Positions 2,410 to 53,896 of a stretch of 55,047 bases of DNA are shown here, piece by piece. The stretch covers positions 1 through 55,047 of the forward strand of contig JAMPXO010000022.1 of the NCBI GenBank assembly GCA_023701125.1. The letters run 5' to 3'. The notes below the pieces were generated by a model. The model ran no database searches. It was not told the origin of the DNA and saw only the letters and a list, made by a program, of their open reading frames with translations. Position 1 is the first letter of the stretch. Each line of letters starts with the position of its first letter. The translations under genes were made by a program, and so were the position numbers. Origin of the DNA: Vicinamibacteria bacterium (GTDB taxonomy: Bacteria; Acidobacteriota; Vicinamibacteria; Fen-336).

Positions 2410-2496
2410 GCGAGAGCGCGCGGCGCCCGCTTTCGCGAAGCGGTGCGTCCCCGGACGGAACGAAGCGAACTTTCGAGGAAGAGAGACGAAGAGACC

Positions 2497-2892
2497 ATGA
2501 ACCGCTTGGACCACATCGAAGCCGGGGAGCTCAAGAAGGGCCTGCCCCAGATCCTCCCGGGTGACACCGTCAAGGTGCACGTCAAGGTCAAGGAGACCAC
2601 GATCAAGGAGGAGAAGGGCCGCAAGGCCAAGGAGACCGAGCGCGAGCGCGTGCAGGTCTTCGAGGGGATCGTGATCGGCCTGCGCGGCTCCGGCACGCGG
2701 GCGACCATGACCGTGCGCAAGGTCTCCTACAGCCAGGGCGTCGAGCGCATCTTCCCGCTGCACGCGACCACGATCGAGAAGATCGAGGTCGTCAAGCGCG
2801 CCCACGTGCGGCGCGCCAAGCTCTACTACCTGCGCGAGCTGAAGGGCAAGGCCAGCCGCATGAAGGAGAAGCGCCTCACCCCGCAGGCCTAG
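2497..2892 (+). CDS. rplS: 50S ribosomal protein L19, with an internal charged insertion
   Basis: This 131-residue L19 is clear from [18 protein letters not shown] and K-L-Y-Y-L-R-E. L19 sits at the 30S-50S interface. The ATG at 2497 follows a GAAGAGACC region. An in-frame ATG-like start upstream (2443) would add residues with no resemblance to L19. Compared with E. coli L19 there are roughly 13 extra, highly charged residues between the first beta strand and V-F-E-G (about residues 32-50). The gene closes the trmD-rplS pair after an 87-nt spacer. Confidence 0.96.
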
Positions 2893-2983
2893 TCCCATCC
2901 GCAAGCCCATCCTCTACAAGGGCGAGACCCTCGCCTGCGATCGCGCCTTCGAGGACGCCGCGCAGGCGGAGGGCTTCGTCGCC

Positions 2984-3544
2984 GTGGCCGGCCTCGACGA
3001 GGTCGGCCGCGGCGCCCTCTGCGGCCCCGTGTTCGCCGCGGCCGTGGTGCTCGGGGAGGGTTTCCCGACCGCGGGGCTCGACGACTCGAAGCGGTTGACC
3101 GCGCTGCAGCGCGAGCGCCTGGCGGAGCGGGTTCGAGAGCGCGCCCGTGGTTTCGCACTCGGCCGGGCCGAGGCCGCCGAGATCGACCGTTTCGACATCC
3201 TGCGCGCCACCCACCTGGCGCTGCGGCGGGCGGTGGCTGCGCTGCCGTTCAAGCCCGACCTGCTGCTCGTCGACGGCCTGCCCGTCAGCGGCCTGCCCGC
3301 ACCGCAGCGGGCGATCGTCAAGGGCGATGCGCGCTCGGTTTCGATCGCCGCCGCCTCGATCCTGGCCAAGGTCGAGCGCGACGCGCTGATGCAGGAACTC
3401 GACCGCCGCCACCCCGGTTACGGCCTCGCCGGCAACAAGGGTTACGGCTCGGCAGACCACCTCGACGCGCTGCGTCGGCTGGGTCCCAGCCCCGAGCACC
3501 GCCGCAGTTTCGGCGGCGGCCACCAGCTCCAGATGTTCGAGTAG
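2984..3544 (+). CDS. rnhB: Ribonuclease HII
   Basis: RNase HII removes ribonucleotides and RNA from RNA-DNA hybrids. The D-E-V-G-R-G metal-binding motif is at residues 5-10, followed by S-I-A-A-A-S-I-L-A-K-V and the H-P-G-Y-G-L-A-G-N-K-G-Y-G-S signature. The start is GTG 2984 with GGAGGG about 11 nt upstream, giving 186 residues. The frame stays open back to a stop at 2861, and residues that look like real protein (about 30 codons) precede the GTG, but that stretch has no ATG, GTG, TTG or CTG. The N-terminus is therefore either unusually short or uses a rare start. Confidence 0.93.
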   Translation: MAGLDEVGRGALCGPVFAAAVVLGEGFPTAGLDDSKRLTALQRERLAERVRERARGFALGRAEAAEIDRFDILRATHLALRRAVAALPFKPDLLLVDGLPVSGLPAPQRAIVKGDARSVSIAAASILAKVERDALMQELDRRHPGYGLAGNKGYGSADHLDALRRLGPSPEHRRSFGGGHQLQMFE

Positions 3545-45065: not shown

Positions 45066-45952
45066 GCCCGCGCCCCCGGGAGATCACGCTGCGCACGGCG
45101 GACGGACACAGCCTGGCCGCCAGCGCCTGGGAGCCGGAGCGCGAGCCGCCCGGCGCAGTGCTGATCACCTCCGCCACCGGCGTCAAGCGCGGCTTCTACG
45201 CACCGTTCGCGTCGTTCCTCGCCGAGCGTGGCCTGCTGGTGCTCAGCTTCGACTACCGTGGCGTCGGCGGCTCGCGGCCGCGCTCGCTGGCGATGTACGA
45301 CGCGCGGATGCGCGACTGGGGCCAGCAGGACGCCGAGGCCGCGCTGCAGTGGCTGCTCGCGCGCACGCCGCACGTCGCGCTGGTCGGCCACAGCTTCGGC
45401 GGCCAGGCGCTGGGCCTGATGCCGGGCGCGCCGCGGCTGCGGGCCGCGCTGCTGGTCGCTGCGCAAAGCGGGTACTGGCGCCACTGGCGCGGCGTCCACC
45501 GGCTCGGCCTGTGGGCGCTGTGGCACGTGTTGATCCCCGGGCTGTGCACGGCCTGCGGCTACTTCCCGGGGCGCGTGCTCGGCTCGGCCCAGGACCTGCC
45601 GTCCGGCGTGGCCCGCGAGTGGGCGCGCTGGGGACGCTTCCCGGGCCACGTGGCCGACGACGAGGGCGGCGCGCTGGCGGCGGGTTTCGCGGGCCTCACG
45701 TTGCCGATCCGCGCGTACTCCTTCGCGGACGACAATTTCGCCCCGGCGGCCGCGGTCGACGGGCTGCTGCGCCTGTACGCGGCGGCCGCGCGTGAGCACG
45801 TGCACCTGGACCCGCGCGACCTGGGCCGCCCGATCGGCCACTGGGGCTTCTTCCGCGAAAAGAGCCGCGAGCCGCTGTGGCTCGACGCGGCCGGCTGGCT
45901 GGAGGCGCAGCTGGGTGGCCCCGGCTCCCGCGGCGCAGGCCGAACCGGATGA
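45059..45952 (+). CDS. Alpha/beta hydrolase
   Basis: A 297-residue soluble hydrolase. The nucleophile elbow is G-H-S-F-G-G with Ser112; Asp is probably in Y-S-F-A-D-D-N-F-A-P and the His in R-P-I-G-H-W-G-F-F. The early F-D-Y-R-G-V-G-G-S is also typical. Similar proteins are annotated as serine aminopeptidase or COG4757-like hydrolases; the substrate is unknown. ATG 45059 (alternative GTG 45062) overlaps the GT2 stop by 7 nt, and its stop overlaps the kinase ATG (ATGA). Confidence 0.88.
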   Translation: MVSPRPREITLRTADGHSLAASAWEPEREPPGAVLITSATGVKRGFYAPFASFLAERGLLVLSFDYRGVGGSRPRSLAMYDARMRDWGQQDAEAALQWLLARTPHVALVGHSFGGQALGLMPGAPRLRAALLVAAQSGYWRHWRGVHRLGLWALWHVLIPGLCTACGYFPGRVLGSAQDLPSGVAREWARWGRFPGHVADDEGGALAAGFAGLTLPIRAYSFADDNFAPAAAVDGLLRLYAAAAREHVHLDPRDLGRPIGHWGFFREKSREPLWLDAAGWLEAQLGGPGSRGAGRTG

Positions 45953-47121
45953 CCTCGACGGTGCGCCGCGGCAGCGTGATCGCCGGCCGCTACGAGCTCG
46001 TGGACTTCCTGGGGCGGGGCGGCATGGGCACGGTGTTCCGCGCCCGCGACCAGGCGCTCGGCGACGACGTGGCGCTCAAGGTGCTCCGGCCCGAGATCGC
46101 GACGCCCGAGTACGAACGCCGCTTTCGTGGCGAGGTCAAGATCGCGCGGCGGGTCCGTCATCGCAACGTGTGCGCCATCCACGACTACGGCCAGGAGGCG
46201 GGGCTCCACTACATCGTGATGGAGCTGGTGGAGGGCGTCGATCTCAAGCACCTCGTCAAGGAGCGGGGTGCGCTGCCGTTGCCCGAGGCGATCCACCTCG
46301 TCGGCCAGCTCGCCGCCGGACTGCAGGCGATCCACGACGCCGGCATCGTGCACCGCGACCTCAAGACGCCGAACGTGATGGTCGACCGCCGCGGCGTCGT
46401 GCGCCTGATGGACTTCGGGATCGCCAAGTCGATGGACTCGCAGACGCTGGCGACGGCCGTCGGCATGATCCTCGGCACCCCCGAGTACATGAGCCCCGAG
46501 CAGGTCCGGGCAGCGACGCTCGACCCGCGCAGCGACCTGTACGCGCTCGGCGTGGTCGCCTTCGAGTTGCTGACGGGGCGCGTGCCGTTCAAGGGCGACA
46601 CGCCGCTGGCGACGCTGATGATGCACCTGCAGGACGAACCGCCCCTCGAACTGCCGCTCGCCGCCGGGCTTCCCGCCGGCATCCGCGCCGCCCTGAAGCG
46701 GGTGCTGGCGAAGGACCCGCAGGAGCGCTTCGCGACGGCCGCCGAGTTCGCGCAGGCACTCGCCGCCGACGGCGCCGACGCCCCGCGCGCCTCCGCGCGT
46801 CTGGCGCCCCGACTCGCGGCGGCCGACGAACGCGCGCCGATCGACAGCGACGAGATCCCCACGGCCCTGACCCCGGCGCCGACACCCGGGCGGCCGCCGG
46901 TCGCCCCCGCGGCGCCGCCTCCGGCCCCCGACTGGGAGGAGGACTTCGCACGCGCCAGCGTCGCCGCCGTGAGCGCAGATTGGGAAGTGGACCTGGCGCC
47001 AGCGCCCGAGGAGTGGGAGGAGGACCTCACGCCCACCCCCGCGCCCCCGCCGACGCCCCCGCCCGCGGACTGGGAAGAGGACTTCGGCGAGTCGCGACCC
47101 ACGCGATTCAGGAACTCTTAA
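45949..47121 (+). CDS. Ser/Thr kinase with acidic tryptophan motifs in its tail
   Basis: A 390-residue soluble PknB-type kinase. The domain is residues 14-270: G-R-G-G-M-G (22-27), Lys44, catalytic Asp137 in H-R-D-L-K, DFG 155-157. The last 110 residues are disordered, Pro/Ala-rich, and carry four (D/E)-W-E-x-D-(F/L) motifs. There is no TM helix. It is translationally coupled to the hydrolase upstream. The repeated acidic-Trp motifs may dock a partner or be autophosphorylation-linked; that is speculation. Confidence 0.92.
   Translation: MTSTVRRGSVIAGRYELVDFLGRGGMGTVFRARDQALGDDVALKVLRPEIATPEYERRFRGEVKIARRVRHRNVCAIHDYGQEAGLHYIVMELVEGVDLKHLVKERGALPLPEAIHLVGQLAAGLQAIHDAGIVHRDLKTPNVMVDRRGVVRLMDFGIAKSMDSQTLATAVGMILGTPEYMSPEQVRAATLDPRSDLYALGVVAFELLTGRVPFKGDTPLATLMMHLQDEPPLELPLAAGLPAGIRAALKRVLAKDPQERFATAAEFAQALAADGADAPRASARLAPRLAAADERAPIDSDEIPTALTPAPTPGRPPVAPAAPPPAPDWEEDFARASVAAVSADWEVDLAPAPEEWEEDLTPTPAPPPTPPPADWEEDFGESRPTRFRNS
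46930..47085 (+). repeat. Four acidic-tryptophan motifs, (D/E)WExD(F/L)
   Basis: D-W-E-E-D-F, D-W-E-V-D-L, E-W-E-E-D-L and D-W-E-E-D-F are spaced along the Pro/Ala-rich tail of the kinase. They look like repeated short linear motifs rather than a folded domain. Confidence 0.8.
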
Positions 47122-47165: not shown

Positions 47166-49301
47166 ATGGTGCGCGTGACGTGGGTCGTGGGGACGGTCGT
47201 CGTCGCTTGCGCCGCGTTCGCCGAGTCCTCCCCGCCTTTCGGCGCAGCCAACGCCGTGGCGGCTGCCGCGGGCAGCCCGCGCCGGGCCGTGCTCGCGGAC
47301 TGGAATCACGACGGCCTGCAGGACCTGGGCCTGCTGCGCGCGGACGACGGCAGCAGCCACCTGGAGTTGCTGGTCGGCAACGGCGCCGGCGCGTTCAGCC
47401 TCGGCGCGCGGGCGGAGATCGCTGCGGACGCGGTCGACCTCGCCGTCGGCGACTGGAACCAGGACGGCGCGCCCGACCTCGCGGCGGCCGGGGCGGGCCG
47501 GATCGAAATCCGCCTCCACGACGGTACCAGCGCCTTCATCGCCCGGCCCGACGTGGCCGTCACGGGCGCCACTGCGGTCGCCGCGGGCTACTTCGACTTC
47601 GACGGTCGTCTCGATCTCGCGGCGCTGGTGGCCGGTGGTGCTGACGTCCTGCTGTTCGCCGGCGACGGCAGCGGCGGCTTCGCGTCCCCGGCGCGGCTGG
47701 CGACGGGGGGGACGGCCGATCGCCTGTTGGCCATGGACCTCGACGGCAACGGCCTGACGGACCTCGTCGTGCTCGACCGCAGCGCCGGCGAGATCGCGAT
47801 CTTCCGCGGCTACGAGGCGGGTTTCGCCACCGTCGGCCGCTTCCCGGTCGGTCAGCTCCCGGCCGCGGCGACCGCCGTCGACCTCGACCGCGACGGCACG
47901 CTCGACCTCGTGGTCGCCAACGAGGGCTCGAGCAACGTGTCGGTGCTGCTGGCGCGGAACGGGACGTTCGACGCCGTGACGTTGTTCTCGACCGACGCGG
48001 CGCCGCGGGCGATCGCGGCCGGGGACGTCAGCGGCGACGGCATTCCCGACCTGGTCGTGGCCAACGCCGGCGCATCGACGCTGGGCGTGCTGCAGGGCGA
48101 CGGCAGCGGCGGCTTCACACTGCTGCAGACTGTGGAGGCGGTCGGGGAACTGACCTGGGTCGCCCTCGCCGACCTCAACGGCGATTCGTCGCTCGACCTG
48201 GTGGCAGGGCCGTCGGCCGGAGGCGGGCTGCTGCTGGCTCTCAACCCGGGTGCGGGCAGCTTCGTGCGCAGCGCGACGTACGCGGCCACGGAGTTGCCCT
48301 ACGGGCTCGACGCGGGCGACCTCGACCGCGACGGCCGTCTCGACATCGTGGCCGCGGGCTACGCGTCCGGCGCGGTCGCCCTGTTGCGCGGCGCCGAGGT
48401 GGGCCTGCTCGCGGCGGCGACGACTCCGGACGTCGGCGTCCAATTGCTCGCGGCGGCCGTCGCCGACTTCGACGCGGACGGGAACCCGGACGTCGCCGTC
48501 TCGGCCCACGGGTCGAAACAGGTCGTGGTGCTCGAGGGCGATGGGGCGGGCGGTTTTCGGCGGCGGGTGGAAGTCGGGGGCGACTTCGAGTCGCCGAGTG
48601 GCCTCGTCGTCGCCCGCCTCGACCGCGACGCTCGCCCGGATCTCGTCGTGGCCGACCAGGCCGGCGGTCGCCTGGTGGCGCTGCTGTCGGCCACGGGCGG
48701 GCTGACCCGCTCCGCGAGCCTCGACCTCGGCGGCCAGCCGTTCGCGGTGGCGGCCGGCGACGTCGACGGCAACGGCTCCGACGACGTTGTCGTGGCCGAT
48801 GCGGGCGACAGCCGCGTCCGGGTCGTGCTGGGCGACGGGGCGGGGGGACTGCGCGCGGGTCAGGAGTTCGACGTCGGCCGCGTGCCGATGGCGATCGCGC
48901 TGGCGGATCTCGACCGCGACGGTCGCCTCGACCTGATCGTGACCAGCCACGGCGAGGGCACCGCGGCGCTCTGGAAGGGGGATGGGCAAGGGCGTTTTTC
49001 TACGCATCTCCTGCTCGACCTCGGCGCACCGGCGCGCGGGGTCGCGGTCGGCGACTTCGACGGCGACGGCTGGCCCGACCTGGCGATCGCACTGCAGAGC
49101 GCGTCGCGGGTGGCGGTCGTGCTTTCCGACGGCGCGGGTCGCTTCGCCGAGCCCGTGCAGTACGCCGCGGGCAGCGGCGTGACCGCGCTGGTCGCCCGCG
49201 ACTTCGACCGCGACGGCGACCTCGACCTGGTCACGGCCGACAGCGCGGGCAGCACGGTCTCGCTGCTGGTCGGGCGCGGCGACGGCAGCTTCGGTCAGTG
49301 A
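47166..49301 (+). CDS. Secreted FG-GAP/VCBS repeat protein
   Basis: A 711-residue exported protein. A signal peptide (V-V-G-T-V-V-V-A-C-A-A-F-A) is followed by about 14 FG-GAP/VCBS repeats, most with a calcium-binding loop of the D-x-D-x-D-G-x-x-D type (for example D-L-D-R-D-G-R-L-D, D-F-D-G-D-G-W-P-D). This predicts a seven-bladed, integrin-alpha-like propeller, possibly two. Such proteins bind surfaces, polysaccharides or partner cells. ATG 47166 has GGGGAGG upstream inside a small hairpin loop (47145-47161). There is no sorting tail. Confidence 0.9.
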   Translation: MVRVTWVVGTVVVACAAFAESSPPFGAANAVAAAAGSPRRAVLADWNHDGLQDLGLLRADDGSSHLELLVGNGAGAFSLGARAEIAADAVDLAVGDWNQDGAPDLAAAGAGRIEIRLHDGTSAFIARPDVAVTGATAVAAGYFDFDGRLDLAALVAGGADVLLFAGDGSGGFASPARLATGGTADRLLAMDLDGNGLTDLVVLDRSAGEIAIFRGYEAGFATVGRFPVGQLPAAATAVDLDRDGTLDLVVANEGSSNVSVLLARNGTFDAVTLFSTDAAPRAIAAGDVSGDGIPDLVVANAGASTLGVLQGDGSGGFTLLQTVEAVGELTWVALADLNGDSSLDLVAGPSAGGGLLLALNPGAGSFVRSATYAATELPYGLDAGDLDRDGRLDIVAAGYASGAVALLRGAEVGLLAAATTPDVGVQLLAAAVADFDADGNPDVAVSAHGSKQVVVLEGDGAGGFRRRVEVGGDFESPSGLVVARLDRDARPDLVVADQAGGRLVALLSATGGLTRSASLDLGGQPFAVAAGDVDGNGSDDVVVADAGDSRVRVVLGDGAGGLRAGQEFDVGRVPMAIALADLDRDGRLDLIVTSHGEGTAALWKGDGQGRFSTHLLLDLGAPARGVAVGDFDGDGWPDLAIALQSASRVAVVLSDGAGRFAEPVQYAAGSGVTALVARDFDRDGDLDLVTADSAGSTVSLLVGRGDGSFGQ

Positions 49302-49835: not shown

Positions 49836-50594
49836 TCAGGTACGCGGGGCTTCCGCTCGCCAGTCCGCGATCGTCGTGCCGATCGCCGCCTCCGCCTGGC
49901 GCAGCAGGCCCTCGCGGTCTTCGCCCTCTGCGCGCGGCAGCGACGGGCAGAAGCGGACGCGGATGCGCTGGCCCCACAGCATCGGCTTCATCCTGCGGGC
50001 GACGACGCGCCACATGCCGTCGATCGCGATCGGCACCACCGGCGCGTCGGGCATCACCTCGAGCAGGGCCAGCGTGCCGGCGGGCTTGAAGGGCTTGAGC
50101 GCGCCGTCCCACGCCCGCGTGCCCTCGGGGAAGATCAGCACGCTGACCCGGCGCTGCTCGGCTTCGACGCCCATCGCGCGGATGGCGGCGACGGCCTGCG
50201 CGCGGTTCTTGCGGTCGATCGAGGCCAGGCCGCCGCGGCGCATGGCGATCGAGATCGAGGGCACCCCGTGCGCCAGCTCCTTCTTCGCCACGTACTTGAG
50301 GAAATGGCGGCCGGTCCAGGCGGCGAAGATCGGCATGTCGAACATCGCCTGGTGGTTGGCGACGAAGATCACGGGCGGTGGCGGCAGCAGGGCCGCGCCG
50401 TCGACCTCGATCCGCATCCCGGACAGCGGCAGCACGAAGTGGGCGAGCACCCACTGCATGGCGAACAGGGAGCGGTCGTGGGCTTCGCGCGAGACGAGCA
50501 GCGCGAGCCGTTGCACGACGTCGAAGCAGACCATCGTGGCGCCGAAGGCCGGCACGAACAGCAGCGTGCCGAACCAGTCGAGGAGCAGCCGCAC
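49836..50594 (-). CDS. 1-acyl-sn-glycerol-3-phosphate acyltransferase (PlsC family)
   Basis: A 252-residue protein. N-H-Q-A-M-F-D is the NHxxxxD catalytic motif and F-P-E-G-T-R the glycerol-phosphate binding motif; two hydrophobic N-terminal segments anchor it. It makes phosphatidic acid from lysophosphatidic acid. GTG 50594 starts 12 nt after the stop of the kinase-globin gene, so both are probably on one mRNA. The arginine-rich R-R-G-G-L-A-S-I-D-R-K-N is also as expected for PlsC. Confidence 0.93.
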   Translation of the reverse strand: MRLLLDWFGTLLFVPAFGATMVCFDVVQRLALLVSREAHDRSLFAMQWVLAHFVLPLSGMRIEVDGAALLPPPPVIFVANHQAMFDMPIFAAWTGRHFLKYVAKKELAHGVPSISIAMRRGGLASIDRKNRAQAVAAIRAMGVEAEQRRVSVLIFPEGTRAWDGALKPFKPAGTLALLEVMPDAPVVPIAIDGMWRVVARRMKPMLWGQRIRVRFCPSLPRAEGEDREGLLRQAEAAIGTTIADWRAEAPRT

Positions 50595-50606: not shown

Positions 50607-52931
50607 CTAGGCGGCCGCGCCCTCGAGCATGACCGCGGTCAGCTCGGAGTAGATCCGCGCCCACGCCAGCCGCACGTCGGCCGAGAACTCCTGGCCCGTG
50701 ATCCGGCGCACCATCTCCAGCAGCGCCTGCTCGACCGAGTCGTAGTGGCGCAGCTCGACGCCGTAGCCCTCGTGGCGGCGGCCCAGCTCGCGCAGCACGG
50801 GCTTCAGCTCGTCGATGCGGTCGAGCCCGCGGACCGCCGTCGCCAGCACGCTCATCAGCATGTCGCCCTGGGTCTTCATGTCGTTGACCCGGAACAGCGG
50901 CCTCGCGCTGGGGTCGACCTGGAACAGCAGCTCGTAGAACAGCGCCGCGGCCTCGTCCTTGCGCCTGGCCACCTGCTCGAAGGTGTCCTGCACGATCATC
51001 ACCGCGTCGCGCTTCTCGAAGTCGACGATCTCGTGGATCGTCGTGTGCCGGCCGTCGAGGGTGTCGTCCTCCTGGACCACGACCCCGAGCCGGACCTCCG
51101 ACTCGATCACGTTGACGAGTTCCTCGGTGGCCAGGATGCGAGTGCCGCGGCCGCGGTTGAGCACGCGCAGGCGCTCGGCGGCGGCGGCCGCCCCGCCCAC
51201 CGCGGTCGTCTCCATCTTCGACGGGTGGCCGACGCGGCCGACGACCATGCGGCCGAAGTGGAGCCCGACGCCCAGCTCCAGCTCCAGCTTGAAGTGCTCC
51301 TTCAGCCACTTGTTGAAGTCGTCCATCCGCGCCTGCATGCGCAGCGCCGCGCGCACGGCCGTGACGCACTTGGCCTTGGCGTCGCCGCCGTCGAGCCCGA
51401 ACAGCGCGTTGAAGCCGTCGCCGGTATAGCCCTGGATCGTGCCGCCGCCGGTGACCGCGGGGTCGGCGACGAACGAGAAGAAGCGGTTCAGCACGTGGAC
51501 CACGTCGTACGGCGGCAGCTTGCGCAACCGCGAGGCCATGTCGAGCAGGCCCGCGGACATCACGGCCACCGCCATCTCGCGGGTCGGCGCCGGAGCCCGG
51601 CGCTCGCTGACCAGCAGGCCGAGGTCCTCCTCGTCGAGCACCAGCCGGCGCACGCTGACGGGCCCCGTCACCTTGGCCTGGCAGGCGAGGCGGATGTCGT
51701 CGCCCCAGCCCAGCCGGGTCGCCAGCCGCGCCTCGTCGGCCGAGCGCGGCGCCAGCGTTCCCTGCGCCACCCGCACCCGGCAGGTGGAGCAGCGGGCGCG
51801 CCCGCCGCACTCGTGGAAGTGGGGGATGCCCTCCTGCAGCGCCGCTTCCAGCAGGGTGCGGCCCGTCGCCACGGTGAGCGACTTGTCGGCGCCGCCCTCG
51901 GCCTGGTAGACGACACGAGCCGTCTGCACGCCGCTCGCCGCGGCCGCGACCGGCGCCGTGTCGACCGCCGATACGGACGCGCCGGCGCGGGACATCGACG
52001 CCGAGGCGCGCAACCAGGCTCCCGCAGCTTGGCCGCCGGCAGCGCTGGCGCCAGCCGGGGCCTCGAGGCGAGCCTCGACCTCGGCCGCGGTGGCGCGGCC
52101 CTCCACCAGCGCGTGCAGCGCGGCGAAGGCCTCGGCCAGCGCCTGGCCGTCGCGGAACCGCTCGCTCGCCTGCTTGGCCAGCGCGCGGCGCAGCACGCGG
52201 TCGACGATCGGCGGCACCTCGGGGTTCAGCTCGTGGACCGGCTCGGGCTCGCGCTCCAGCACCTGGAACAGCGCCGCATGCACGCTCGGCGCCGGGAACG
52301 GCTTGCGTCCCGACAGCACCTCGTACCCGATCGCGCCCAGCGCGAACACGTCGGAGCGGGCGTCGGCGCGCTCGCCACGCACCTGCTCCGGCGACATGTA
52401 GTGCGGCGTGCCGAGCACCTGGCCGCTGCGGGTGGCGTCGCTGCCCTCGATCCGAGCCAGGCCGAAGTCGAGGATCTTGAGCCCGCCGCCGGGCAGCAGC
52501 CGGATGTTGGCGGGTTTCAGGTCGCGGTGGACGACGCCCTTGGCGTGGGCGAAGCCGACCGCGGCGCCGGCCTGCGCGAGCAGCGCGAGGCGCGCGGGCA
52601 GCGGCCCCAGCGGGCCGCGGCGCAGGGCGTCCGAGAGGTCCTCGCCCTCGAGCAGTTCCATCGCCAGGTAGCAGCGGCCGTCGGCCTCGCCGAAGTCGTA
52701 GATGGTGACGATGTTCGGGTGGGTGAGGCCGGCTGCCGCCTGGGCCTCGCGCCGGAACCGCTCGCGGCGCTCCTCCGGGGCGTCGTCGCCCGCCCGCTCG
52801 AGGATCGTCTTGAGCGCCACGACTCGGTCCAGGCCCTCGTCGCGGGCCTTGAAGACCTCGCCCATCGCTCCCGCGCCGATGCGCTCCAGGATGCGGTACT
52901 TGGCCAGGGCGGAGATCGAAGCGGAGGACAT
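50607..52931 (-). CDS. Ser/Thr kinase - [2Fe-2S] ferredoxin - cyclase-like - globin fusion
   Basis: A single 774-residue frame. The kinase domain is 11-275 (G-A-G-A-M-G at 19-24, Lys41, Asp137 in H-R-D-L-K, DFG 155-157), apparently active. After an Ala-rich linker, a ferredoxin domain (about 338-430) has Cys375, 381, 384 and 417 (C-x5-C-x2-C-x32-C). A class III cyclase-like domain (about 452-640) follows: P-P-Y-D-V-V-H-V-L-N-R-F-F and G-Y-T-G-D-G-F-N-A-L-F-G. It lacks the first metal Asp and the D-x-V-N segment (reads V-G-G-A-A-A-A-A). The C-terminal globin (about 650-770) keeps Tyr666 (B10), Gln688 (E7) and proximal His720 in R-R-H-E-G-Y-G-V. There is no TM helix. ATG 52931. Individual domains are confident; function as a redox/gas-gated kinase is inferred. 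Confidence 0.93.
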   Translation of the reverse strand: MSSASISALAKYRILERIGAGAMGEVFKARDEGLDRVVALKTILERAGDDAPEERRERFRREAQAAAGLTHPNIVTIYDFGEADGRCYLAMELLEGEDLSDALRRGPLGPLPARLALLAQAGAAVGFAHAKGVVHRDLKPANIRLLPGGGLKILDFGLARIEGSDATRSGQVLGTPHYMSPEQVRGERADARSDVFALGAIGYEVLSGRKPFPAPSVHAALFQVLEREPEPVHELNPEVPPIVDRVLRRALAKQASERFRDGQALAEAFAALHALVEGRATAAEVEARLEAPAGASAAGGQAAGAWLRASASMSRAGASVSAVDTAPVAAAASGVQTARVVYQAEGGADKSLTVATGRTLLEAALQEGIPHFHECGGRARCSTCRVRVAQGTLAPRSADEARLATRLGWGDDIRLACQAKVTGPVSVRRLVLDEEDLGLLVSERRAPAPTREMAVAVMSAGLLDMASRLRKLPPYDVVHVLNRFFSFVADPAVTGGGTIQGYTGDGFNALFGLDGGDAKAKCVTAVRAALRMQARMDDFNKWLKEHFKLELELGVGLHFGRMVVGRVGHPSKMETTAVGGAAAAAERLRVLNRGRGTRILATEELVNVIESEVRLGVVVQEDDTLDGRHTTIHEIVDFEKRDAVMIVQDTFEQVARRKDEAAALFYELLFQVDPSARPLFRVNDMKTQGDMLMSVLATAVRGLDRIDELKPVLRELGRRHEGYGVELRHYDSVEQALLEMVRRITGQEFSADVRLAWARIYSELTAVMLEGAAA

Positions 52932-52999: not shown

Positions 53000-53896
53000 C
53001 TAGCTGTCGTCCTCGTCGAAGCCCAGGGCCTGCAGCGCGTCGTGATGCCGGGTGGCGGCGAAGAACGTCAGCGGGATCGCCGCCAGCGCGAGCGACACGA
53101 GGCCGCTGGCCAGCGTCTGCACCCGCAGCCACGTGTAGTTGGAGAGGGTGACCAGGTCGTGGTCGATGCCGGCCTTGCCCTGCTGGTAGATGGCGCGTTG
53201 CGCCGCGCTGCCGACCAGCCCGCTCCCGAAGGTCACCACGTTGAAGAGCAGGAAGAAGCCGACGAAGCAGGAGAGCGGGCGCTCGAGCGGGGAGCGCGAG
53301 CCCCAGCCGGTCAGCCCGCGGTACAGGAACACGGCGCCGAACACCACCTCGAACAGGTGGCCGCCGGCCACGGTCAGCCACTCGTCCCAGCCACGCCAGA
53401 TCAGCAGGGCCCACATCGCGAAGGCGCCGATCGCGACCCGCCGCGGCCACCCCGGCCACACCCAGGCGGCGCCCCCGGCCGCGGCCGCCCACGCCAGCAG
53501 GATCAGGTTCGAGCGCTCGCCGTGGGTGGTCAGGCCGCCGCCGCCCGCGAAATCGAACGCGGGCAGCGAGGGGTGGCCGAACAGCCAGCCGCAGGCGGCG
53601 TGGCCGATCTCGTGCAGCAGCGTCGACAGCGGCGTCAGCAGGAAGTGGGCGAACGGGAAGCGCGGCAGCACCAGCGCGACCGCGAGGCCGATCGCCGCCG
53701 CCTTCCAGGCAGCATGGGTCAGGCCCAGGCGGCGCGGTTCTTCGCCCGGGAGCGGGGCCGCGACGTCCGGCCGCGGCTCGCGCTCGGGGCGCAATCGCGG
53801 CGCCCCGGCGGCGCGGGCGCGAGCCAGGATCACGCCGCAGGCGGCGCACTCGACGGCACCCGGCGCTGTCGCCTCCCCACACCGAGGACAGGTCAT
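53000..53896 (-). CDS. M50B-like membrane metalloprotease with N-terminal zinc ribbon
   Basis: A 298-residue protein. Zinc ribbon C-P-R-C-G ... C-A-A-C-G (Cys 3, 6, 17, 20) is followed by about 6 TM helices. L-L-H-E-I-G-H-A (His95, Glu96, His99) is the zinc-binding HExxH of the M50 family, placed at a membrane surface. I do not see the second N/D-x-x-P-G motif clearly, so protease activity is uncertain. ATG 53896 has a TACGAT box 7 nt upstream. It is upstream of the kinase-globin gene on the same strand (68-nt gap). Confidence 0.82.
   Translation of the reverse strand: MTCPRCGEATAPGAVECAACGVILARARAAGAPRLRPEREPRPDVAAPLPGEEPRRLGLTHAAWKAAAIGLAVALVLPRFPFAHFLLTPLSTLLHEIGHAACGWLFGHPSLPAFDFAGGGGLTTHGERSNLILLAWAAAAGGAAWVWPGWPRRVAIGAFAMWALLIWRGWDEWLTVAGGHLFEVVFGAVFLYRGLTGWGSRSPLERPLSCFVGFFLLFNVVTFGSGLVGSAAQRAIYQQGKAGIDHDLVTLSNYTWLRVQTLASGLVSLALAAIPLTFFAATRHHDALQALGFDEDDS

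Follow-up and report, generated by a model that had tools for sequence, protein, structure and literature searches.

Predicted soluble Ser/Thr kinases fused to a ferredoxin, pseudocyclase and globin module in Acidobacteriota and Myxococcota

The window, a stretch of 55,047 nucleotides from a Vicinamibacteria genome assembly, contains a frame which runs from an ATG at 52931 to its stop with no internal stop codon (Table 1). Its GC content by codon position (GC1/GC2/GC3 = 0.76/0.48/0.97) matches the expectation for coding DNA at such GC. Pfam matches to Pkinase, Fer2, Guanylate_cyc and Globin were obtained within the translated protein, the Guanylate_cyc match (residues 455-612, E 1.5e-4) being weak and slightly below the curated cut-off. 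The four domains which the first-pass annotation had read in one uninterrupted frame were thereby recovered. No transmembrane (TM) segment was found in the protein (maximum 19-residue hydropathy 1.25), which is predicted to be soluble, as that annotation had proposed.

Table 1. Kinase gene of the window, the domains of its product and the adjoining genes
Feature	Residues	Coordinates	Strand	Remarks
Whole gene: kinase - 2Fe-2S ferredoxin - pseudocyclase - globin protein		50607..52931	-	774 aa
Hanks-type Ser/Thr kinase domain (predicted)	12-265	52137..52898	-	Pfam Pkinase, E 6e-46
Low-complexity Ala/Ser linker	271-334	51930..52121	-	weakly conserved, model confidence mostly low
[2Fe-2S] ferredoxin domain (predicted)	348-422	51666..51890	-	Pfam Fer2, E 2e-11
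Pseudocyclase, class III cyclase fold without catalytic residues	451-630	51042..51581	-	residues and fold
Globin domain	640-774	50610..51014	-	Pfam Globin match residues 665-768, E 5e-12
PlsC-like acyltransferase		49836..50594	-	start 12 bp past kinase-gene stop
Weak M50B-like / Zn-ribbon protein gene		53000..53896	-	68 bp upstream of kinase gene

The PlsC-like gene and the kinase gene likely share a transcript. No functional link between the two is known, and the PlsC-like neighbour, kept in two congeners (G001 and G002), was absent beside the other family members examined. The upstream M50B-like / Zn-ribbon gene was also retained in the two congeners, in which the whole protein occupies a single frame (approx. 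89% identity) with identical flanking gene order. A sequencing or assembly error which fused separate genes, named beforehand as something that would undo the reading, might be imagined for a draft genome of 254 contigs, but it is refuted because homologues are intact elsewhere: the same single frame and flanks were found in both congener assemblies and the protein also occurs in six further genomes, which leaves such an error a negligible chance. Comparison with the two congeners gave a dN/dS of 0.17-0.19 overall and below 0.4 for each domain (kinase 0.13, Fer2 0.25-0.38, pseudocyclase 0.09-0.10, globin 0.23-0.26). Purifying selection acts on every domain and is strongest on the cyclase-like one, which is predicted to be dead. 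Two plus-strand genes lie nearby in the window. One (45937-47118) encodes a further Ser/Thr kinase with a W-E-(E/V)-D motif repeated in its Pro/Ala-rich tail, and the other (47166-49301), which adjoins the kinase-plsC pair and is kept in the congeners, encodes a long secreted-looking repeat protein, FG-GAP/VCBS-like by eye.

The kinase domain was intact as first described, and its residues K41, E62, HRD135-137, K139, N142 and DFG155-157 were invariant in eight acidobacterial members of the family. On the VAIK Lys, C-helix Glu, HRD Asp and DFG Asp the domain is assigned to the Hanks-type Ser/Thr kinases, and phosphotransfer is predicted. In a model of the whole chain the kinase part was closest in fold to PknA/PknB. 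PknA/PknB-type bacterial Ser/Thr kinases are alike in kinase fold and catalytic motifs, but the protein described here has no PASTA domain or TM segment and carries instead a C-terminal module with predicted cofactors. The TOMM_kin_cyc kinase/cyclase fusions (TIGR03903) likewise combine kinase and cyclase-like parts in one chain, but against that profile the window protein scored 153 (cut-off 706), with the best stretch within the kinase. The domains of the whole-chain model were confident individually, while its pTM was 0.42 and the mutual packing of the domains is therefore not defined by the model. Since the linker between the kinase and Fer2 domains is long and weakly conserved, rigid coupling is not evident.

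The ferredoxin motif reported earlier was confirmed with the ligand pattern C375-x5-C381-x2-C384-x32-C417, and all four Cys were present in 32/32 aligned Fer2 domains, including those of the 12 family members. The Fer2 match and the four Cys ligands identify a [2Fe-2S] ferredoxin domain in which the cluster is predicted. Its dN/dS exceeded that of the other three domains, and its identity among congeners was lower (80%). Directly downstream of the gene for one family member, G519b, lies a flavodoxin gene (L134:5861-6391, minus strand), whose product might supply electrons to the ferredoxin domain.

For the domain which had been called class III cyclase-like, the fold was upheld and the catalytic residues were found to be lost, hence the name pseudocyclase. 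The model of residues 326-774, based on 52 sequences (pLDDT 92.3, pTM 0.77), contained a class III cyclase fold closest to that of Cya2 (2w01, TM 0.87 by target length). The Me-a Asp is replaced by Gly461, the purine Asp by Gly580 and the Asn by Ala583, and only the Me-b Asp505 remains. The complete cyclase set (two metal Asp, Asn, Arg) was found in 0/12 kinase-fused proteins versus 29/30 kinase-less Fer2-cyclases, Sinorhizobium CyaC among them, a contrast which is descriptive as the aligned proteins are related. Most kinase-fused members have neither metal Asp. The domain is accordingly predicted from its residues to be catalytically dead in all 12 members and, as the kinase-fused clade forms one branch, the loss may have been a single event. 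A bifunctional protein, with a kinase and a still-active cyclase, could draw on the class III fold and on the Me-b Asp505 and Arg587 position, which are retained within the window's genus. With the Me-a Asp, purine Asp and Asn missing from the window protein itself, and the full set present in no member, we consider it very improbable. If dead, the domain would serve as a relay or dimer scaffold and not as an output.

The previously noted B10 Tyr, E7 Gln and F8 His were located by alignment to HGbRL (3wfw), a globin of solved structure, at Tyr666, Gln688 and His720, with Phe680 at CD1. These four residues were found in 33/33 aligned globins, including 12/12 family members. HGbRL was the closest solved globin (E 2e-22), followed by 3s1i/3ubc. 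The domain, which is C-terminal and matches PF00042 and not Protoglobin, is assigned as F-type (flavohaemoglobin-like), with haem binding predicted. HGbRL of Methylacidiphilum, a globin-Roadblock protein proposed to be a sensor, shares the B10 Tyr and E7 Gln, and the globin group with these residues includes flavohaemoglobin (PMC4476040). In HGbRL, however, the globin is N-terminal and no kinase, Fe-S or cyclase domain is present. A fused E-F helix like that of HGbRL appeared in a first model and was absent from the model with a deeper alignment. Membership of the flavohaemoglobin NO dioxygenases was rejected, NF009805 scoring 49 (cut-off 432) over the globin part only and H23 not being conserved. 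H23 Glu belongs to the proximal triad of flavohaemoglobins, and across the family this position varies (A/D/T/R/E/P). In globin-coupled sensors (HemAT, AfGcHK, globin-DGCs) the haem ligation or redox state of the globin controls an output enzyme (PMC12805357). Their globin is of the S family and usually N-terminal, whereas that of the window family is C-terminal, F-type and nearest to HGbRL/HGbIV and flavohaemoglobin. The C-terminal position and the lack of a Protoglobin match place the protein outside the S-family sensors, so that any likeness is functional at most. Sensor outputs in the literature examined were DGC, PDE, histidine kinase, MCP and STAS, with no Hanks-type kinase. A HemB (ALAD, haem synthesis) frame lies directly downstream of the gene for another family member, G1418a (L211:4975-6177, minus strand).

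A search for the architecture across genomes, suggested with the original reading, established that the kinase-Fer2-pseudocyclase-globin protein is a real family and not unique to the window genome. At least 12 proteins with uniform domain order were found across two phyla and 9 genomes: the window's genus accounts for three, a second acidobacterial class for five and Myxococcota for four. The C-terminal part was used as query, as the full-length query returned mainly kinases and was uninformative on architecture. Among 193 genomes of the window's class the module was found in one piece only in the three congeners. When 396 genomes of the phylum were searched with the globin alone, G519 was found to carry two full-length paralogues (G519a, G519b), and a profile search of 149 genomes of its class added G570 (two members) and G564 (one), with a clean gap from E 1e-154 down to 1e-33 for single-domain globins. 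The Myxococcota members are in G891 and G878 (one each) and G1418 (two). Beyond the genus, full-length homologues were 32-49% identical in five genomes, with an additional pair in a sixth. Pfam domain content was verified directly for the window protein, G891, G878, G570b and G564, and the remaining members were assigned by full-length alignment or three-part BLAST. Samples of Pseudomonadota (299 genomes), Chloroflexota (161), Gemmatimonadota (140) and Desulfobacterota (148) contained Fer2-cyclases, none of them with a continuous Fer2-to-globin match. Plasmid records likewise gave Fer2-cyclases only, none spanning 80% of the module. The parts are known separately, as Fer2-cyclases, globin sensors and Hanks kinases. 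The open-access papers searched contained no description of this four-domain order or of any globin joined to a Hanks-type kinase; the expectation that the architecture had not been well described held to that extent, and the family is apparently undescribed.

Kinase-fused proteins formed one side of a branch both in the Fer2-cyclase tree (support 90/98) and in the globin tree (97/97). Grouping of their kinase domains as one clade was rejected for all 11 (p-AU 0.0098) and for the seven acidobacterial ones (0.037), in both cases with long branches. The window's kinase grouped with ordinary kinases of its own family. The G519a/b and G570a kinases fell in other parts of the tree, and the myxobacterial kinases in others again. 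Because the sensor parts each form one clade and the kinases have several origins, the Fer2-pseudocyclase-globin module appears to have been inherited as a unit, with the kinase replaced or re-recruited, although the long branches call for caution. Different kinases on one sensory module are as expected if the module is a regulator. A kinase-less myxobacterial Fer2-cyclase-globin protein of 474 aa with intact cyclase residues was also found (L210:6737-8158, plus strand). This protein, likely a redox/gas-sensing nucleotide cyclase, stood apart from the family in both the Fer2-cyclase and the globin trees, and may have arisen by an independent fusion of a globin to an active Fer2-cyclase.

CyaC of S. 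meliloti contains a cyclase together with one [2Fe-2S] cluster and two haem b, and its activity follows the quinone redox state (PMC10463352, citing Wissig 2019). The Fer2-cyclase core of such CyaC-type class III cyclases is homologous to that of the family (33-42% identical), and CyaC, with its redox-responsive output, has haem and [2Fe-2S] in one chain, as predicted for the family. In CyaC the haem lies in a 6TM di-haem b anchor and the output is a cyclase, whereas in the family the predicted haem is in a soluble C-terminal globin, the cyclase appears dead and the output would be a kinase. With no TM segment and a cyclase predicted to be dead, the window protein was not counted among the CyaC redox cyclases. 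CyaC is the best analogue for the proposed mechanism, and as part of the explanation we favour, the sensory module probably descends from redox-regulated Fer2-cyclases of this type.

In that explanation the protein is probably a soluble Ser/Thr kinase set by its C-terminal [2Fe-2S] ferredoxin, dead cyclase and haem globin module. The globin haem would sense O2, NO or CO, or else whether its iron is Fe(II) or Fe(III). The 2Fe-2S cluster would sense how far a soluble electron carrier is reduced, and electrons may pass between cluster and haem. The pseudocyclase, keeping the dimerising class III fold, would convert the cofactor states into a shift of two kinase domains relative to each other, and altered kinase pairing would then alter autophosphorylation and activity. 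The ancestral cyclase output would have been lost, with phosphorylation in its place. We infer the cofactor loading, the dimer, the gating and its direction, the identity of the signal and the substrates. The two-input sensor kinase proposed initially thus remains the best reading, its ligands being conserved across two phyla, with the amendment that the cyclase-like domain, if dead, would be a relay or scaffold. A direct link from the kinase to respiration might be drawn by analogy with CyaC. Gene neighbours across the family include no conserved partner, and the flavodoxin and HemB neighbours are consistent with redox or haem use.

Two other readings keep the cofactors and assign them differently. 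A single-input kinase, in which one cofactor domain is live and the other structural or vestigial, would fit the dN/dS of the Fer2 domain, above that of the other three, and its reduced identity (80%) between congeners. Neither the four Cys nor any haem-pocket residue varies in 12/12 proteins spanning two phyla, however, and we regard this reading as unlikely. The chain could otherwise be a redox enzyme, its ferredoxin feeding the globin haem to remove NO or O2 in the manner of a flavohaemoglobin NO dioxygenase, with ferredoxin replacing the FAD reductase and the kinase regulated otherwise or regulating the enzyme. The globin does fall in the B10 Tyr / E7 Gln group with flavohaemoglobin (PMC4476040), a 2Fe-2S electron carrier is predicted in the same chain and a flavodoxin gene adjoins one homologue. 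Nevertheless the chain has no FAD/NAD(P)H domain, H23 Glu is not conserved, CyaC, the nearest Fer2-cyclase to have been characterised, is a sensor, and bulk detoxification offers no obvious reason to carry a pseudocyclase and a kinase; we rate an enzyme of this kind a little lower still, as improbable. Returning to the sensor kinase, we tentatively, and at somewhat less than even chance, propose a dual-cofactor class in which haem globin and [2Fe-2S] would jointly gate a Hanks-type kinase by way of a dimer of dead cyclase domains, perhaps with electrons passing between the two cofactors within the chain, a redox-sensing cyclase module having lost its cyclic-nucleotide output and been coupled to kinases more than once.

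To our knowledge, the signal sensed by most bacterial Hanks-type kinases is unknown. The inputs of the present kinases are legible from sequence and both cofactors give spectra, so that sensing is directly testable. The sensory module would have kept its shape while the output moved from cyclic nucleotide to phosphorylation, and an apparently dead enzyme, on which selection is strong (dN/dS about 0.09), would have been retained as its relay. Haem/redox sensing would thereby also cover Ser/Thr phosphorylation in environmental members of two bacterial phyla.

A second kinase-globin architecture, kinase-LRR-globin with a C-terminal globin, was observed in the window's class and in Myxococcota as frames of 1072-1231 aa (L115:6773-10027, L117:2791-6483, L118:3423-6638, L176:4561-8100), which suggests that regulation of Ser/Thr kinases by globins may be more widespread. 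At L095-L097, L114 and L116, also in the window's class, single-domain globin frames lie beside Ser/Thr kinase frames, mostly tail-to-tail, and several of these kinases form a clade, the neighbourhoods being few and the association weak. A Pseudomonadota Fer2-cyclase gene has a single-domain globin frame on either side (L185:1-699, 1066-2385, 2489-3148). Finally, L177:3988-6615 (minus strand) encodes an N-terminal F-type globin followed, on reading of the sequence only, by PAS and chemoreceptor signalling-like sequence.
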